From: Methanobacteriota archaeon
Lineage (GTDB): Archaea; Thermoplasmatota; Thermoplasmata; Methanomassiliicoccales; Methanomassiliicoccaceae
DNA length: 48,421 bases
Direction of reading: 5' to 3'
NCBI GenBank assembly: GCA_012518185.1
Contig: JAAYTA010000069.1
Coordinates: forward strand, 1 to 48,421
Shown: piece after piece, positions 1,767 through 10,099 of the stretch
Position numbering within the stretch: the stretch's first letter is position 1
Layout of the letters: every line of letters begins with the position of its first letter
Notes under the pieces: model-generated
Told to the model about the DNA's origin: nothing
Databases searched by the model: none
The model's input: only the letters and a program-made list of their open reading frames with translations
Program-made: the position numbers and the translations under genes

Positions 1767-2609
1767 TTAGAATGCATCTCGGTATTCTAGATCTCTATTT
1801 TCGCATAAATTTCGGATACGATTAATAATATCATTGTAGAATTCTCTGTCTTTAATGTATTTCTCTAATATTGATAAGGAGGAAGGATCCATCTCCTTCA
1901 TTCTTTTAAGCAATCTAATATCCATCCCCGGACGAAGGTTGAGTCTATCAACCATGACTATAGAGGCTCCCGTATCGCGGATTGAATCTAAAAACTCGTC
2001 AAGGCGGAAATCTGTTATGGTAGGTATGATGGGACCAATAAGAGCATAAACACTCACGCCTTCGTTACTCAATATCTTCATTGCATCAAGTCTCTCAGAA
2101 GGAGGTGTAGAATACGGTTCAAATATAGTCGCTCTATTGCTATCCATTGCTGTTATTGTAATTCCCACTTCAGAATCATTCAATTTTGAAATTAGATCGA
2201 TATCTCTGGTAACTAGTGGTGATTTAGTAAGTATACTTACTTTAGCACGGTGCTTTACTAAGACTTCTAAACATCTTCGAGTTAGATTAACAACTCTCTC
2301 AGCAGGTTGATATGGATCTGTTACTGTCCCTAGACCTATCATACCTCTATTGCGCGGTAATTCCCTATCTAACAACACAGGTAGATTCATCTTAGCCGAT
2401 ATTATGCATCCCCATTCATCGACTGGTTGTCTTGTAATATATGGTGCATAACAGTAAGTACACCTATGACTACATCCTTGGTAAGGATTGAGGGCGAAGT
2501 CAAGGCCTGGAAGGCGTGATGGTGATAGGGCAACTGTAGCCTTAGTTTCCCTAACATTGGGAGGATATTCATCACCGGAAAAGAACATGTCTAGATTAAA
2601 CATAATCAT
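1767..2609 (-). CDS. SplB-like radical SAM protein (COG1533 type)
   Basis: Radical S-adenosylmethionine enzyme of the group related to spore photoproduct lyase; the family uses a [4Fe-4S] cluster to make the 5'-deoxyadenosyl radical, but the substrate of this archaeal branch is not established. The cluster motif is seen at residues 46-53 (C46-x3-C50-x2-C53 in NPYQGCSHRCTYCYAP), preceded by the conserved NPYQGC context. 280 residues, about the usual size of the short branch. The ATG at 2609 is followed by a second in-frame ATG at 2603; either start overlaps the 3' end of the upstream NreA-type gene (14 or 8 nt), indicating translational coupling. That pairing suggests a nucleic-acid repair or modification role, an inference only. 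Confidence 0.85.
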   Translation of the reverse strand: MIMFNLDMFFSGDEYPPNVRETKATVALSPSRLPGLDFALNPYQGCSHRCTYCYAPYITRQPVDEWGCIISAKMNLPVLLDRELPRNRGMIGLGTVTDPYQPAERVVNLTRRCLEVLVKHRAKVSILTKSPLVTRDIDLISKLNDSEVGITITAMDSNRATIFEPYSTPPSERLDAMKILSNEGVSVYALIGPIIPTITDFRLDEFLDSIRDTGASIVMVDRLNLRPGMDIRLLKRMKEMDPSSLSILEKYIKDREFYNDIINRIRNLCENRDLEYRDAF

Positions 2610-3903
2610 CTATCCTTCTCTGAGATAGAAAGTCGCGCAAGATGCCGCTATGAGCAATCCACGTCTCCATAGGTATTTCCATACGTCCGGATATGTGCGC
2701 TAATGCTTGCTGAAGCGTTTCAAATCTATGTGGCTCAGTCATCAATGCTGCCCGAACGTTTTCTCTAACATTCCATACTCCAACTGGCATAATGTAGCCT
2801 GGATGTGCTTCTCTGAAAATTATGGCTCCGGCCTGCTTTCCTTCTTTCATAAGCAATTCATTAATAGCTAGGCGTGCAGCATAATAACAGCCGCCTATAG
2901 GAGCATATTCCTTCCGTCCCTTGAAGAACTCATGATCACTCAGTATCTCCACTTCCCTACCCATTGGATTCCAGGCAGTGTTGGGATACCATGCCTCTAT
3001 GAGTTCATAGCGCCAGGAAGTAGGCATGAGTAATATACTCCACCTATTATCTAATTGATACCAATCATATACTCTCCACTCATCCAATAACGGATTATAT
3101 CGAGTATCTTTTAGGAGTCCTTTTCCCAAAATGTCATCTACAGCCGTTATAGTCCATCTGGTAGGCACAAACCTGCGATTTTTTCCTATACCAAATGCGC
3201 CCACTGAGAATGCCTTTTGTATTTTAGATATCATGACTCCGTCACGATATAGTTCTCGCACTGCCTGTGTGGCTTTTAAGTCTTTATCATAATAGGCCTT
3301 CTCCACATGTTGATCGTATTTTGGATTTCCAACTGAAAGATCTCTCAGCCAGGCTGAGGGCCCAAACGGTTGTACTTCATCATCCAGTATCATACGACCG
3401 CTGGGCTTTTTCAGGAACTTTGCTTCCACTTCTAGAGGATTATTAGATAATGCAAGATCTCTAGTGAGATCAACGATTCGACCTCCCTTTTCGAAGTTGA
3501 ACGCATCAATCCGATGTTTTCCTCTAACTAATGAAAATCGAAAATCTACTATCTCTTCAATACTCTTTCCGACCCAAAGTTCTGGAGTATCCATCATTGC
3601 AGTGTCGCCCATAATAGGTGGTACAAGTGGGCCGATCTCAACTTTTGGATATCCATATCGACCGACAAAAATTCCAGGAGGAGACATGCCTGCTAAATCT
3701 AAAGTATCGATCATCCTACGTGTTTTTGATCGAGAATAAAACTTAACCATTAGGGGACATCGATCTTTACCACATAGATTCCGGGAGCCTTTGCATAGAA
3801 CGCATGCTGAGCCCTTCGGGACTTGTAGAGCACCTTCTGCGCGAAGTGCGCCAAAATGGACGTCAAAGTTCCCCTGGTATGAATTGGACATTTGCTTTCT
3901 CAC
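2596..3903 (-). CDS. nreA: NreA-type archaeal DNA repair protein (Nre family)
   Basis: 435-residue protein matching the archaeal Nre family, implicated genetically in repair of DNA damage and in binding the sliding clamp PCNA. An N-terminal zinc-finger-like set is visible at C34-x2-C37-x6-C44-x4-C49 followed by Pro, the hallmark of the family. The C-terminal eight residues read QRRIDDYV, close to the PCNA-interacting peptide pattern Q-x-x-hydrophobic-x-x-aromatic, where such peptides are usually placed. The body (two DUF650/DUF651-like halves) has no recognised catalytic motif. Start is the ATG at 3903, with another in-frame ATG four codons later; both are plausible. It overlaps the next gene, an SplB-like radical SAM enzyme. 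Family call is firm; biochemical function is unknown. Confidence 0.85.
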   Translation of the reverse strand: MRKQMSNSYQGNFDVHFGALRAEGALQVPKGSACVLCKGSRNLCGKDRCPLMVKFYSRSKTRRMIDTLDLAGMSPPGIFVGRYGYPKVEIGPLVPPIMGDTAMMDTPELWVGKSIEEIVDFRFSLVRGKHRIDAFNFEKGGRIVDLTRDLALSNNPLEVEAKFLKKPSGRMILDDEVQPFGPSAWLRDLSVGNPKYDQHVEKAYYDKDLKATQAVRELYRDGVMISKIQKAFSVGAFGIGKNRRFVPTRWTITAVDDILGKGLLKDTRYNPLLDEWRVYDWYQLDNRWSILLMPTSWRYELIEAWYPNTAWNPMGREVEILSDHEFFKGRKEYAPIGGCYYAARLAINELLMKEGKQAGAIIFREAHPGYIMPVGVWNVRENVRAALMTEPHRFETLQQALAHISGRMEIPMETWIAHSGILRDFLSQRRIDDYV

Positions 3904-5784: not shown

Positions 5785-6756
5785 TTATCCTGCCCAAGAA
5801 GTTATCTGATATATGCCATTCTCCTCATAATTCCCCTTTTTTATCATCCTTATATTTGCTCCTTTTAACGAATATGAGCGAGATAACATATGATTATAGA
5901 GTGTCGGTGATTCTGCTGATAATCGTACTAGGATGTGGTCCTTTCCCATAGATGATGATATCTGTTCACATCGATCTAGAAGAGAATCAAATATTTCTTC
6001 CTGATCAGATCGTTCGGGATCCACTATAACAGCTTTAATTGAGGAATAGCGAGATTCTTCATCTCTCTGATATGTGTGTAGTATGGCAAGGCCCACCACT
6101 TTTCCTTCCCTCTTTGAAACTAATACATGTCCCATTCGTCGCTCCACTGTTATCTTGACTTCTGAGGAGTAATCTAATGAAGGCGATATACTTCGTCCGA
6201 GTCGAGCTATATCTCCTAATGTATGTTCTAAATGAGAAATGTCTATTTCTTCAGTGAAATGAGGATGTGTTCCTTTACTCATCATCTGCTTTTCCATAAC
6301 AAGTATTAATGATATGGGCGAGTATTTTGATGATAGATAGAAATGTAGATTTTTAGGCAAATGAGACATTGTCTCAAGGCCAATGACATCGCATCCTTTT
6401 TCCGATAGATGATGCTCGCAAGCCCCAAGAAGAGCTTTACCTACTCCATCATTCTGATTCATTGGGAGAACTTCTAATGGACCAATCCAACCGACATTTC
6501 CCCAGATGTGACAGAATGCCGATCCTACTATTTTTCCGTCAATTTCAGCGACTAGACATCCATCGGGATCTGCAGCCATATATGCTTTGATCAATCTTTC
6601 TGATCGTTTGGGATAGCGGAAACGTCTCCCAATGTCCTGTGTAGCAAGATCTGACCATGCTATCTGGCCCACATCTCTCACTTGCTCCATATCGTCTATT
6701 ACCATAGGTCTTATAGTGATTTCCCGGTTTTTATTGGCTCGAGATAAAATATTCAT
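5785..6756 (-). CDS. Tandem GNAT-domain acetyltransferase
   Basis: 323 residues with two GNAT folds. The first (about 13-165) keeps an acetyl-CoA pyrophosphate loop of the Q/R-x-x-G-x-G/A type (QNDGVGKALL, about 101-110). The second (about 190-315) keeps the central strand GKVVGLAILHTY but has a poor CoA loop, so only the first domain is likely catalytic. Substrate is not predictable. It sits 10 nt after the PolX-like gene, so a larB-polX-gnat transcript is likely. The ATG at 6756 is taken because the fold begins within about 15 residues of it. Confidence 0.72.
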   Translation of the reverse strand: MNILSRANKNREITIRPMVIDDMEQVRDVGQIAWSDLATQDIGRRFRYPKRSERLIKAYMAADPDGCLVAEIDGKIVGSAFCHIWGNVGWIGPLEVLPMNQNDGVGKALLGACEHHLSEKGCDVIGLETMSHLPKNLHFYLSSKYSPISLILVMEKQMMSKGTHPHFTEEIDISHLEHTLGDIARLGRSISPSLDYSSEVKITVERRMGHVLVSKREGKVVGLAILHTYQRDEESRYSSIKAVIVDPERSDQEEIFDSLLDRCEQISSSMGKDHILVRLSAESPTLYNHMLSRSYSLKGANIRMIKKGNYEENGIYQITSWAG

Positions 6757-6766
6757 CAGACGTACT

Positions 6767-8422
6767 TCACCCCCTCCATCCTCGTCTTCTCAACTGATCG
6801 ACTGATAATGCATTCAGAAATCGTTCGGGCCCTAATCCAGATTGCTCGGCTGCGATAATGGCCCAGTCCCAATACATTAACTCATCTGGGAATGCTGCTT
6901 CCGTGCCGAGCATGAGAAGTGGAGAAGAATCTAGAGATCTAACCGAGTCAGCATCAAGATCCAATCTATCAGGATATACATTCATCTCTAGTGCTATATT
7001 TAGATCAGCTGCAGCATAACTTATTTTAGCAATGTCGATTTGAATACGCTCTCTGAGTCCAATCACTCTGCTATTAGGATGTCCTAGAACATCCATCAGG
7101 GAATTCTCCATTGCTCTTAGTACTCTAGAAGTCATCTCTCTATTATCCATAGTGAGGGACGTATTAACCGAAGCAATGACTATATCAAGATCTTCAAGTG
7201 ACTCTGAAGGAAAGTCTAGATCACCCTTGGGAGATATGTCCACTTCCCCACCCTTCAATATCGTCATTCCCAACAACTCGGACGTTTCATCTATGAGTAT
7301 ATTTCGTTGTTCCAGAGTAGATGGATCCATTCTACGGCTCCCAAGGCGGTCGCATATGCAAATATACTCATGCCCTAGTTCACTAGCCTTGGCAGCCATT
7401 TCTAAGACTCTCATACCTTCATTAAATGAGATTGAGCGGACGTGAAGATCACCTCGAAGATCAGATGGAGTTACCTTCGCGTTGGGTAATCCTCTGAGTT
7501 CAGGCCTTATTGGAGGCATATTTACTGATTCAAATACATCATTTTCTGTTATTGCTTTGCGACGAGCTCCGAATCGTATGTTACTATCCCGTATGATCCT
7601 ATCTATATCTCTCACATATTCATTAGGACCAGTGGATCTCAAAAGCTCAAGACCGAAGATGTCAGGATCAACAGCCCTTAGCATACAAACAGCGCCTGAT
7701 GTTGTCTTACCTAGAGCCTGCCACTTATCGACCATTAGTAATTCTACTATTTCAGGGCAAAGGCCAAAACGTGCAATTATATCTTCAGGAGAAGGTGCAG
7801 AAAACAGTAGCATGATATTTGCAACGGTTGGAACTTTTCGACGTAGTGGGCCAGTGAGTTCTAATCTCTCCAGTCCTGGTGCATAGCGGAGATAATTGAT
7901 GATCTTACGGGCCGAATGCATAGCGTACGGTGAGGGAACTTCGGCGACTTCTTCTCGCTGCCAGGTTAGATATTCTAAAGTGCGTCGCTCCACTTCAGAA
8001 CCAAACCCTAATAGATCAGTAAGGCGGTTTTCATGTATAGCTCTGAGTAGATCGTCGACTGAGCGGATGCCAAGATGGATGTCGAGATCGGCTAAGCGCC
8101 TCATGCCTAGAGCAGGTATTCTTCTAAGAAGCTCTAGATCCTCCGGGAGTAAGTTGCGTACTTCTTCTAACGCCTCTATCTCGCCAGTGCGTAGGAATTC
8201 GTCCACTCTAGCTTCAATACTTTTTCCAATCCCATCTATGAGGCGTAATTCTCCCCGCTCACTGATTGAGCGGAGATTCTCCGTTAAGTCTTCAATACTC
8301 CTTGCCGCTCTGAGATAGCTACTGGCCCTCCAGCGCTCTCCCTGGATCTCCATGGCAAGAGCTAGATCATAGAATAGATCAGCTATAATCTTATTATCTG
8401 CCCTACCTATCGTAACTGCCAT
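6767..8422 (-). CDS. PolX-family (DNA polymerase beta + PHP) protein, both active sites degenerate
   Basis: 551 residues in the full PolX layout: N-terminal helix-hairpin-helix 8-kDa region (about 10-155), a nucleotidyltransferase palm/fingers region (about 165-290) and a C-terminal PHP domain (about 322-550). Length and order match bacterial/archaeal PolX, which couples gap-filling synthesis with a 3'-5' exonuclease. The catalytic residues are gone: the GS motif is GP (191-192), the GD(I/L)D metal motif is ANIM (201-204), and the third Asp position reads C246. In the PHP domain HxH is H327-V-R329, TDH is C357-D-R359, SVH is SVN (418-420) and terminal TDAH is TEAA (507-510); GHP (447-449) and LEMNVYPDRLD persist. 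The reading frame is intact, so this is probably a structural or DNA-binding paralogue. 9 nt after larB. Confidence 0.88.
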   Translation of the reverse strand: MAVTIGRADNKIIADLFYDLALAMEIQGERWRASSYLRAARSIEDLTENLRSISERGELRLIDGIGKSIEARVDEFLRTGEIEALEEVRNLLPEDLELLRRIPALGMRRLADLDIHLGIRSVDDLLRAIHENRLTDLLGFGSEVERRTLEYLTWQREEVAEVPSPYAMHSARKIINYLRYAPGLERLELTGPLRRKVPTVANIMLLFSAPSPEDIIARFGLCPEIVELLMVDKWQALGKTTSGAVCMLRAVDPDIFGLELLRSTGPNEYVRDIDRIIRDSNIRFGARRKAITENDVFESVNMPPIRPELRGLPNAKVTPSDLRGDLHVRSISFNEGMRVLEMAAKASELGHEYICICDRLGSRRMDPSTLEQRNILIDETSELLGMTILKGGEVDISPKGDLDFPSESLEDLDIVIASVNTSLTMDNREMTSRVLRAMENSLMDVLGHPNSRVIGLRERIQIDIAKISYAAADLNIALEMNVYPDRLDLDADSVRSLDSSPLLMLGTEAAFPDELMYWDWAIIAAEQSGLGPERFLNALSVDQLRRRGWRG

Positions 8423-8431
8423 ACTACCATT

Positions 8432-9196
8432 TTATATTTGAGAGCGTCTGCATCTTATACTTATGAGGGCAGCAGTAATACCAGCTCCCACTCCATTATC
8501 TATATTGACCGTTACAAGACCGGGAGAACAGGATTGTAGCATAGATGCTAGAGCAACTTTTCCACCTTCACCTACGCCATAACCTACTGACGTAGGAACT
8601 CCTATTACTGGCACATCCACTAATGATGATACCACTGATGCTAATGCACCTTCCATCCCGGCTACCACTACCAATGCATCAGCGCCACTTTCTAACATAT
8701 TGTGGAGGGGTTCGATAAAACGGTGAAAGGCGGCGATACCTACATCATATGCAGTCATCACACGGCATCCCATAGCTTCAGCCACCACTCTTGCTTCTTC
8801 AGCTGTTGATATATCTGAACTTCCACCAGCTAGTAATCCAATTATTCCTTTTTCCTTATGCTCTTTTCTGCGATCGAGGATTATCATCTTGGCTTCATCT
8901 TCATATCTTGCTTCAGGGATCCTATCTCGGACTGCTTCAAACTGTTGAAGAGAAGATCGAGAAACTAATAATACATCACGCTCTGCCATGGCTCCTTCTA
9001 TGATGTCTGCTATTGTGTTTGCATCCTTACTTTCACCATATATGATTTCAGGAACACCCTTTCGTTCTGCACGGCGGGCATCGAATAATGTATGTTCTCC
9101 GATCCTGCGGATATAATCCATGCGGAGCAGTCTTTCCGCCTCAGAGATATTAATCTCTCCCTTACTGTGTCTTTCTAGGACATCCCTAATGCTCAT
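8432..9196 (-). CDS. larB: LarB, pyridinium-3,5-biscarboxylic acid mononucleotide synthase
   Basis: 254-residue PurE-like carboxylase/hydrolase that carries out the first step in making the nickel-pincer nucleotide cofactor from nicotinic acid adenine dinucleotide. Seen: AGGSSDI (about 125), the AYDVGIAAFHR segment, VVAGMEGALASVV, PTSVGYG and VNIDNGVGAG, all in LarB order. The ATG at 9196 is preferred over a TTG one codon earlier. Its divergent neighbour is LarE, which performs the sulfur transfer; LarC (nickel insertion) and LarA (racemase) are not in this window. Followed at 9 nt by the PolX-like gene. Confidence is high for family. Confidence 0.9.
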   Translation of the reverse strand: MSIRDVLERHSKGEINISEAERLLRMDYIRRIGEHTLFDARRAERKGVPEIIYGESKDANTIADIIEGAMAERDVLLVSRSSLQQFEAVRDRIPEARYEDEAKMIILDRRKEHKEKGIIGLLAGGSSDISTAEEARVVAEAMGCRVMTAYDVGIAAFHRFIEPLHNMLESGADALVVVAGMEGALASVVSSLVDVPVIGVPTSVGYGVGEGGKVALASMLQSCSPGLVTVNIDNGVGAGITAALISIRCRRSQI

Positions 9197-9244
9197 CAAT
9201 CAGCCATACGCGATTATTGTTATTTTGACATTTTGGCCCAACAA

Positions 9245-10099
9245 ATGATAATATCCTATGTTCATACATGCCATGTGAGTGATAAATCACTGGAACAGTT
9301 GAAAGAAATCCTTCATTCTATGAAGAGGGTGGCTATAGCTTATTCTGGTGGTGTAGATAGTGCCTTACTCCTTCGCGTAGCCAAAGATTCCCTTCTTGAA
9401 GAGATTATAGCTATTGTAAATGTCTCTCCATTAAACTCTGCAGATGACGTCGATAATGCTATTATGGTTGCTAGATCCATGAATATCGAGCCGCTAATAA
9501 CATATTCTAATCCATTGAATGATCCATATTTTAGAAGTAATCCTATCGATCGCTGTTACTATTGTAAAAAGAGTATGCTCAATGCTATAATCAATATGGC
9601 AAAGGATCGAGGAATCGAATGTGTAATAGAGGGAAGTCATCGCGACGATTTGGATTGCGATCGACCAGGTAATCGCGCAATTGCTGAGCTGGGTGTTAGA
9701 TCACCTCTGCGAGAAGTGGGATTGGATAAAAAGGGAGTTCGGAGATTGGCTAAAAAGTTATCAATTCCCTCAGCTGATAGACCTTCTAGCCCCTGCCTAA
9801 TTACTAGGATCCCATTTAATCAGGAGGTCAGTGAAGAAGCGCTTAAAACGGTTGAGAAAGCCGAGTCCGCACTTAAGGAATTGGGATTTGAAGAAGTTAG
9901 AGTTCGACATCATGGAACGATAGCTCGCATAGAAGTTCCACGGAATGATATGATCCGTCTGATTAATTTATATGATAAAGTGGTGGAAAAACTGAATCGG
10001 ACGGGATTCATCTATGTCACTGTAGACTTACAAGGTATTCGTTCAGGAAGTATGTCTGAGGCGTTGGCGAGTAATACCAATCGCCATAATGACGTGTGA
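9245..10099 (+). CDS. larE: LarE, ATP-dependent sacrificial sulfur transferase
   Basis: PP-loop enzyme that adenylates the carboxylate groups of the LarB product and donates sulfur to make the thiocarboxylates of the nickel-pincer nucleotide. The PP-loop SGGVDS begins about 34 residues in; RCYYCKKSM, GSHRDDLDCDRPG and SSPCLITRIPF follow, the last carrying the Cys that serves as sulfur donor in characterised LarE. 284 residues from the ATG at 9245, chosen because an AT-rich TATA-like stretch (about 9212-9224) lies about 27 nt upstream (leaderless). A TTG at 9233 and GTG at 9275 are alternatives. Divergent from larB, with under 50 nt between them, so shared control is likely. Confidence 0.9.
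   Translation: MIISYVHTCHVSDKSLEQLKEILHSMKRVAIAYSGGVDSALLLRVAKDSLLEEIIAIVNVSPLNSADDVDNAIMVARSMNIEPLITYSNPLNDPYFRSNPIDRCYYCKKSMLNAIINMAKDRGIECVIEGSHRDDLDCDRPGNRAIAELGVRSPLREVGLDKKGVRRLAKKLSIPSADRPSSPCLITRIPFNQEVSEEALKTVEKAESALKELGFEEVRVRHHGTIARIEVPRNDMIRLINLYDKVVEKLNRTGFIYVTVDLQGIRSGSMSEALASNTNRHNDV

Follow-up and report, generated by a model that had tools for sequence, protein, structure and literature searches.

The locus described here raises the question of what a PolX-family gene is kept for when both its polymerase and its PHP nuclease active sites have been erased. It lies in a 48,421-nucleotide contig (JAAYTA010000069.1, the window) of an archaeon of the Methanomassiliicoccaceae, and its product is here called PolX*. 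According to recent surveys, the PHP nuclease is preserved in PolX evolution even in members that no longer synthesize DNA (PMC9226535, PMC12926913). In the main text of the first, the catalytic triad is altered in 27.5% of PolXs, the full PHP set is kept in 98% of those, and polymerase-dead, PHP-active PolXs are already established; the second, from 2026, puts conservation in bacterial PolX1 at 95% for the PHP site and 75% for the polymerase site. A selected clade without either site breaks this rule. From comparison of the available sequences PolX* is very probably such a dead but selected paralogue, and its function probably needs no catalysis, because evolution has kept the gene intact despite the erasure of both sites.

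The reading frame of PolX* opens with ATG and is free of frameshifts. PolX of Thermus thermophilus (Tth) is a full-length phmmer match (E about 1e-60, residues 10-544), D. radiodurans PolX (2w9m) also matches from end to end, and the same two proteins, in this order, are the first PDB matches in Foldseek of an AF2 model based on the aligned orthologues (mean pLDDT 84.2, pTM 0.73). The 8-kDa, fingers, palm, thumb and PHP domains follow one another as in other members of the family, with only HHH_8 above the Pfam cut-off and the thumb and PHP domains below theirs (PHP 13.8 bits vs a cut-off of 26.4). Motifs were called by alignment to Tth PolX and to canonical PolXs of the same order (Table 1). 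The palm triad DDD is N202/M204/M247 in PolX*, which thus lacks the three acidic palm residues of a canonical PolX, and GS has become GP (Tth S188 to P192). The nine PHP ligands HHHEHHEDH read HRRENHEEA, with five of nine changed; H327, E393, H448 and E479 are left and the change to E508 is conservative. PolX* therefore shares the altered triad of the noncanonical PolXs (PMC9226535) but not their conserved nine-residue PHP site. The original prediction that both centres were lost together in an intact frame is borne out by this alignment. Its list of substitutions was right except for the third Asp, which corresponds to Met247 and not Cys246, and the "entire PolX architecture" that it described is true of the full-length domain order but overstated, as the thumb and HhH2/HhH3 are eroded.

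Table 1. Features of the PolX* locus, in window coordinates. Substitutions are given as Tth PolX residue followed by PolX* residue.
Feature	Position	Strand	Evidence
NreA-type DNA repair protein, further downstream, family-wide synteny	2596..3903	-	Pfam Nre_N/Nre_C
Two-domain GNAT acetyltransferase, directly downstream of PolX*, 10-bp gap	5785..6756	-	Pfam Acetyltransf_1, two stretches
PolX*, 551-aa paralogue of the PolX family, both active sites (polymerase, PHP) erased	6767..8422	-	ORF, phmmer, alignment, AF2
PHP domain, about residues 321-548	6779..7462	-	phmmer to Tth, Dr PHP; below Pfam cut-off
TDAH to TEAA: D529 to E508, H531 to A510	6893..6901	-	Alignment
Retained DNA-path residues N481, R486 (Tth 501, 506; Bsu N498, R503)	6965..6982	-	13/13
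Retained DNA-path residues R452, R457 (Tth R472, R477; Bsu R469, R474)	7052..7069	-	13/13
PHP metal ligand H440 to N420 (SVH to SVN), 13/13 orthologues	7163..7165	-	Alignment
PHP metal ligand H374 to R359 (TDH to CDR)	7346..7348	-	Alignment
PHP metal ligand H344 to R329 (HVH to HVR), 13/13 orthologues	7436..7438	-	Alignment
Thumb remnant, poorly conserved among orthologues	7487..7669	-	Pfam thumb E=0.012
Palm domain, conserved core	7670..7936	-	Alignment, domain identities
Erased third catalytic Asp: D243 to M247	7682..7684	-	Alignment
Erased DxD, GDLD to ANIM: D198 to N202, D200 to M204	7811..7819	-	Alignment to Tth PolX
Fingers region containing HhH2 and HhH3, both without their GxG hairpin; sign of net charge reversed	7937..8164	-	
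8-kDa (HHH_8) domain, residues 9-81	8180..8398	-	Pfam HHH_8 6e-14; all 13 members
Pol beta K72 / Pol lambda K312 lyase lysine position: Arg72	8207..8209	-	Pol lambda alignment
larB, directly upstream of PolX*, 9-bp gap	8432..9199	-	NCBIfam LarB 1.7e-73
larE, divergent from larB	9233..10099	+	NCBIfam TIGR00268 5.9e-85

Orthologues with the same erased motifs were found in 14 of 15 Methanomassiliicoccaceae genomes; the remaining genome (G014) is 80% complete and is missing larB and the GNAT gene too. A search of 61 related genomes detected them in all genera of the family, with identities of 38-73%. The triad, S188, H344, H374, H440 and H531 are replaced alike or similarly in 13-14 independent genomes, so the loss is not due to chance, and this recurrence rules out sequencing error as its source. 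All orthologues have in common PARR, PLRR or PFRR, the motif VAN[IV][MT] (ATAFT in G006), Met at the position of the third Asp, HxH with Arg replacing its second His, an SVN-type motif and the absence of the final His. CDR is general, with CDH in L012 and VDR in G006, and D529 is still Asp except in four or five genomes from the genus of the window, which have Glu. When catalytic and other canonical invariants were compared over the whole protein, 2 of 11 and 35 of 80 were kept, a difference that is not significant (Fisher p 0.19), and the dead-site argument therefore rests on which residues changed and on their recurrence. Across 400 Thermoplasmata genomes, mostly MAGs, a profile of the family scored 788-965 bits inside the Methanomassiliicoccaceae and at most 365 bits for any other PolX; among these genomes, which represent one class, the PolX* form is restricted to this family.

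A canonical PolX is encoded at another locus in 13 of the 14 genomes with PolX*. Like the canonical copies that the search of 61 genomes detected, the one in the genome of the window (G000:C106:28056-29771) is about 30% identical to PolX*, with triad DDD and PHP set HHHEHHEDH intact, and its presence rules out that PolX* replaced an only PolX. It is flanked by genes for glutamate dehydrogenase, RuBisCO, an IF-2B (ribose-1,5-bisphosphate isomerase-like) protein and an AMP phosphorylase-like protein (L034:2738-9560), of which the last three belong to the AMP salvage pathway, and this neighbourhood is syntenic in other families of the order. At the lyase-lysine position of the 8-kDa domain this canonical copy (L034:4056-5771) has Ile and that of G003 (L041) has Arg, while nearly all others have Lys. 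The sole family genome without a canonical copy, G006, is 99% complete and also lacks the glutamate dehydrogenase gene that elsewhere flanks it. Since G006 keeps PolX* alone, here in its most divergent form (38% identity), PolX* is no mere accessory to the canonical protein.

Other PolXs of the class have gone a different way. In family code f14 (L168-L177, from G408, G356, G375, G372, G405, G284, G243, G290, G342 and G317) the triad DDD is intact and the PHP site decayed (HH-ETHEGx type), with several ligands and most of the DNA-path residues gone, a mirror image of polymerase-dead PolXs. L178 (G272, family code f22) combines DDD with the PHP set HNKQSHEGT and is apparently another independent PHP loss.

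The PolX* copies form one clade with support of 100/100, so that monophyly and the same lost residues coincide in 14 genomes. Branching inside the clade resembles that among the canonical copies, which makes vertical inheritance from the family ancestor most likely. The dN/dS values (NG86) of seven PolX* pairs were 0.29, 0.25, 0.25, 0.15, 0.17, 0.13 and 0.17, compared with 0.12-0.27 for the canonical copy. The check proposed with the original prediction, recurrence of the substitutions in related genomes at low dN/dS, thus came out in its favour (14 genomes, about 0.13-0.29), and its proposal of selection for a role apart from synthesis or exonuclease activity is supported. Most terminal branches of PolX* have about 1-2 times the length of their canonical counterparts. 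Relative to a concatenate of neighbouring genes the G006 branch (1.7) is about 3.5 times as long, with about 1.2-2.6 times in most others, and the GNAT branch of G006 is also about 2.8 times as long. In the best tree, whose sampling left out the bacterial altered PolXs, PolX* sits on a long branch apart from every PolX sampled, and AU tests reject neither a grouping with the canonical copies of the family (p 0.105) nor one with those of the order (p 0.15). PolX* may have arisen by duplication inside the family, by an older duplication or by transfer.

In family genomes with contigs spanning the locus PolX* lies between larB and the GNAT gene; a contig end conceals the larB side in G011, and slight overlaps take the place of the short gaps in G006. 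Of the 26 genomes from other families in which both larB and the GNAT gene occur, 25 have the two side by side, -14 to 152 bp apart, and the pair without PolX* was found in four such families. The sole exception, G040, has a 1-kb gap with short ORFs that appear VOC-like and zinc-ribbon-like by eye; these are unrelated to PolX, and the gap is ruled out as a PolX relic. Given this adjacency outside the family, insertion of PolX* into a pre-existing pair at the family base is the most economical interpretation. A paralogue that coexists with canonical PolX and was inserted once between these two genes had been missed in the first reading of the sequence. The association of the two-domain GNAT gene with larB extends throughout the order Methanomassiliicoccales, and the gene is possibly linked to nickel-pincer cofactor biology. 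The larB next to PolX* in L052 (G002:C3:83935-84692) is in two frames, owing to a frameshift or an assembly error.

The domains of PolX* have been conserved to different degrees, as judged by mean pairwise identity among the altered copies (13 PolX* orthologues) and among the canonical ones. The 8-kDa domain is the best conserved (73% vs 64% in canonical PolX), with the GxG of HhH1 kept and R32 and Y36 invariant. Identity in the fingers is 62% in both, and their mean charge has gone from about +3 to about -6.5 (-5 in the window protein). The palm (64% vs 59%) contains a new near-invariant stretch at residues 238-244 (G238-K239-T240-x-S242-G243-A244, K239 in 12 of 13) and further new invariant residues (FG..PE..EL), while the thumb has fallen to 37% vs 69% and the PHP domain to 59% vs 67%. 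In B. subtilis PolX, nuclease activities and DNA binding both suffer severely when R469, R474, N498 or R503 is mutated (PMC6616362). All four are retained in 13 of 13 PolX* orthologues despite the lost metal ligands, as opposed to the f14 PolXs, in which the path is mostly lost, and this contrast was counted in favour of an adaptor role. The fifth path residue (Bsu K545) is Arg or Lys in nine of 13 and Gln in the window protein. Four retained positions make a small sample, and of 25 further PHP invariants 15 persist too, so the path residues may serve folding instead.

On these grounds we give a probability of about 0.5 to the following reading as a whole. An old archaeal PolX paralogue lost both synthesis and PHP nuclease chemistry before the Methanomassiliicoccaceae diversified and has since been kept by purifying selection within the larB-GNAT gene string, a part that the sequences support strongly, and it would now work as a non-catalytic nucleic-acid-binding or adaptor protein. 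DNA ends would be held by the 8-kDa domain (5'-phosphate/dRP-end pocket, HhH1) together with a basic path on the PHP surface, and the palm with its new near-invariant loop may serve as a structural or partner-binding core. PolX* could then protect ends, hand them over or modulate canonical PolX, with no gap filling or trimming. Nucleic-acid binding is favoured because the 8-kDa end pocket and the PHP path are retained; the DNA-end role itself is advanced tentatively, at slightly under an even chance. The binding role that had been predicted from retained structural residues is compatible with these data, as PDRLDLD, GHP and GLR include the DNA-contact path (PMC6616362). Ordinary binding of gapped DNA, which had also been expected, is argued against by the loss of GxG in HhH2 and HhH3, the reversed charge of the fingers and the eroded thumb: the gap-binding core of Pol beta, with its HhH2 GxG and basic fingers and thumb, is degenerate here, and binding in a polymerase manner is doubtful.

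The main rival to an adaptor at DNA ends would be a role as partner in the larB/GNAT operon. PolX* may have been repurposed off DNA, as scaffold or regulator for LarB and the nickel-pincer cofactor or for the GNAT protein, or to bind a new ligand in the palm. The position between larB and the GNAT gene, fixed in every contiguous family genome, agrees with such a role, as do the eroded thumb and HhH2/HhH3 with their charge reversal and the new invariant palm residues GKTxSGA and FG..PE..EL. Yet the 8-kDa domain and the PHP path are still present, sharing an operon is by itself a weak guide to function, and larB and GNAT do not need PolX*, since they are adjacent without it in four other families; we consider this explanation unlikely, though worth keeping in view. 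Improbable to a clearly greater degree is a single-function lyase in which the 8-kDa domain still cleaves 5'-dRP or AP sites by way of a lysine of the Pol beta K72 type, so that PolX* would retain some catalysis. This lysine is found in the 12 other orthologues compared, next to the invariant R32 and Y36 and an intact HhH1, and is absent from the canonical copies L034, of the same genome, and L041; but the window protein alone has Arg in place of the Schiff-base Lys72 equivalent, which also counts against an end-related role in that protein, and Lys is equally present in most canonical PolXs.

Retention of a reduced or altered PHP metal site with another chemistry (E393, H448, E479 and D/E508) is, if anything, still less probable. 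E393 and E479 are invariant, H448 is found in 11 of 13 orthologues and D/E508 in all 13, and PHP sets in which three ligands are replaced, such as HHRERHEDC, are on record for other PolXs (PMC9226535). Two His to Arg changes, one His to Asn change and the missing last His speak against it, however; the arginines would tend to keep metal out and could form salt bridges with the acidic residues that are left, and the Phe440 equivalent is Leu423 in every orthologue. Decay as a pseudogene under relaxed selection is very improbable and largely refuted: PolX* does exceed canonical PolX in dN/dS in one clade (0.25-0.29 vs 0.12-0.15) and has a long branch in G006, but the frame is open in 14 of 14 genomes, dN/dS is well below 1, inheritance has been vertical since the family ancestor and conservation is domain-specific.

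A conserved PolX form that is dead at both sites appears to be undescribed in the open-access literature that was searched. None is described as a conserved clade in the main texts of PMC9226535 and PMC12926913, and PolX and Methanomassiliicoccus are named together in that literature only in work on PolD. The former lists 12 altered archaeal PolX sequences, 11 of them in "Methanomicrobia", and some of these could be members of the PolX* clade. Whatever its role, PolX* provides a natural separation-of-function set, in which the PolX surfaces still under selection can be seen after catalysis was lost, and the family members that carry both copies make it testable with the active copy as internal control. 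With somewhat less than even confidence, we propose a lineage-wide "pseudo-PolX", a whole polymerase-nuclease that would have become a non-catalytic adaptor at DNA ends, or a partner of the larB/GNAT operon, and that is conserved beside an active PolX.

Among known systems the canonical archaeal PolX of the same genomes is of the same family and domain order as PolX*, but has intact sites and another locus. The noncanonical PolXs of Deinococcus and Bacteroidetes (Prostova et al. 2022, PMC9226535; 2w9m) resemble PolX* in their full domain order and lost triad, and genomes that pair a canonical with an altered PolX are known for this type too; their PHP nuclease, however, is intact and active, whereas that of PolX* is erased as well. 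The Actinobacteria PolX-like proteins (PMC12926913) are also relatives of PolX without polymerase function, but lack the polymerase region altogether, while in PolX* the region is present with its active site, and the PHP site, erased. The PHP domain of E. coli Pol III alpha has likewise lost metal ligands and kept a structural role, although it is attached to an active C-family polymerase (PMC3666897). ImuB, a polymerase homologue that is itself inactive, persists as part of a mutagenesis complex of several proteins and differs from PolX* in belonging to the Y family, in having known partners and in the absence of a PHP domain (PMC12926913). If the proposal is true, pseudo-PolX would be to the PolX family what ImuB, or an activating "prozyme", is elsewhere.
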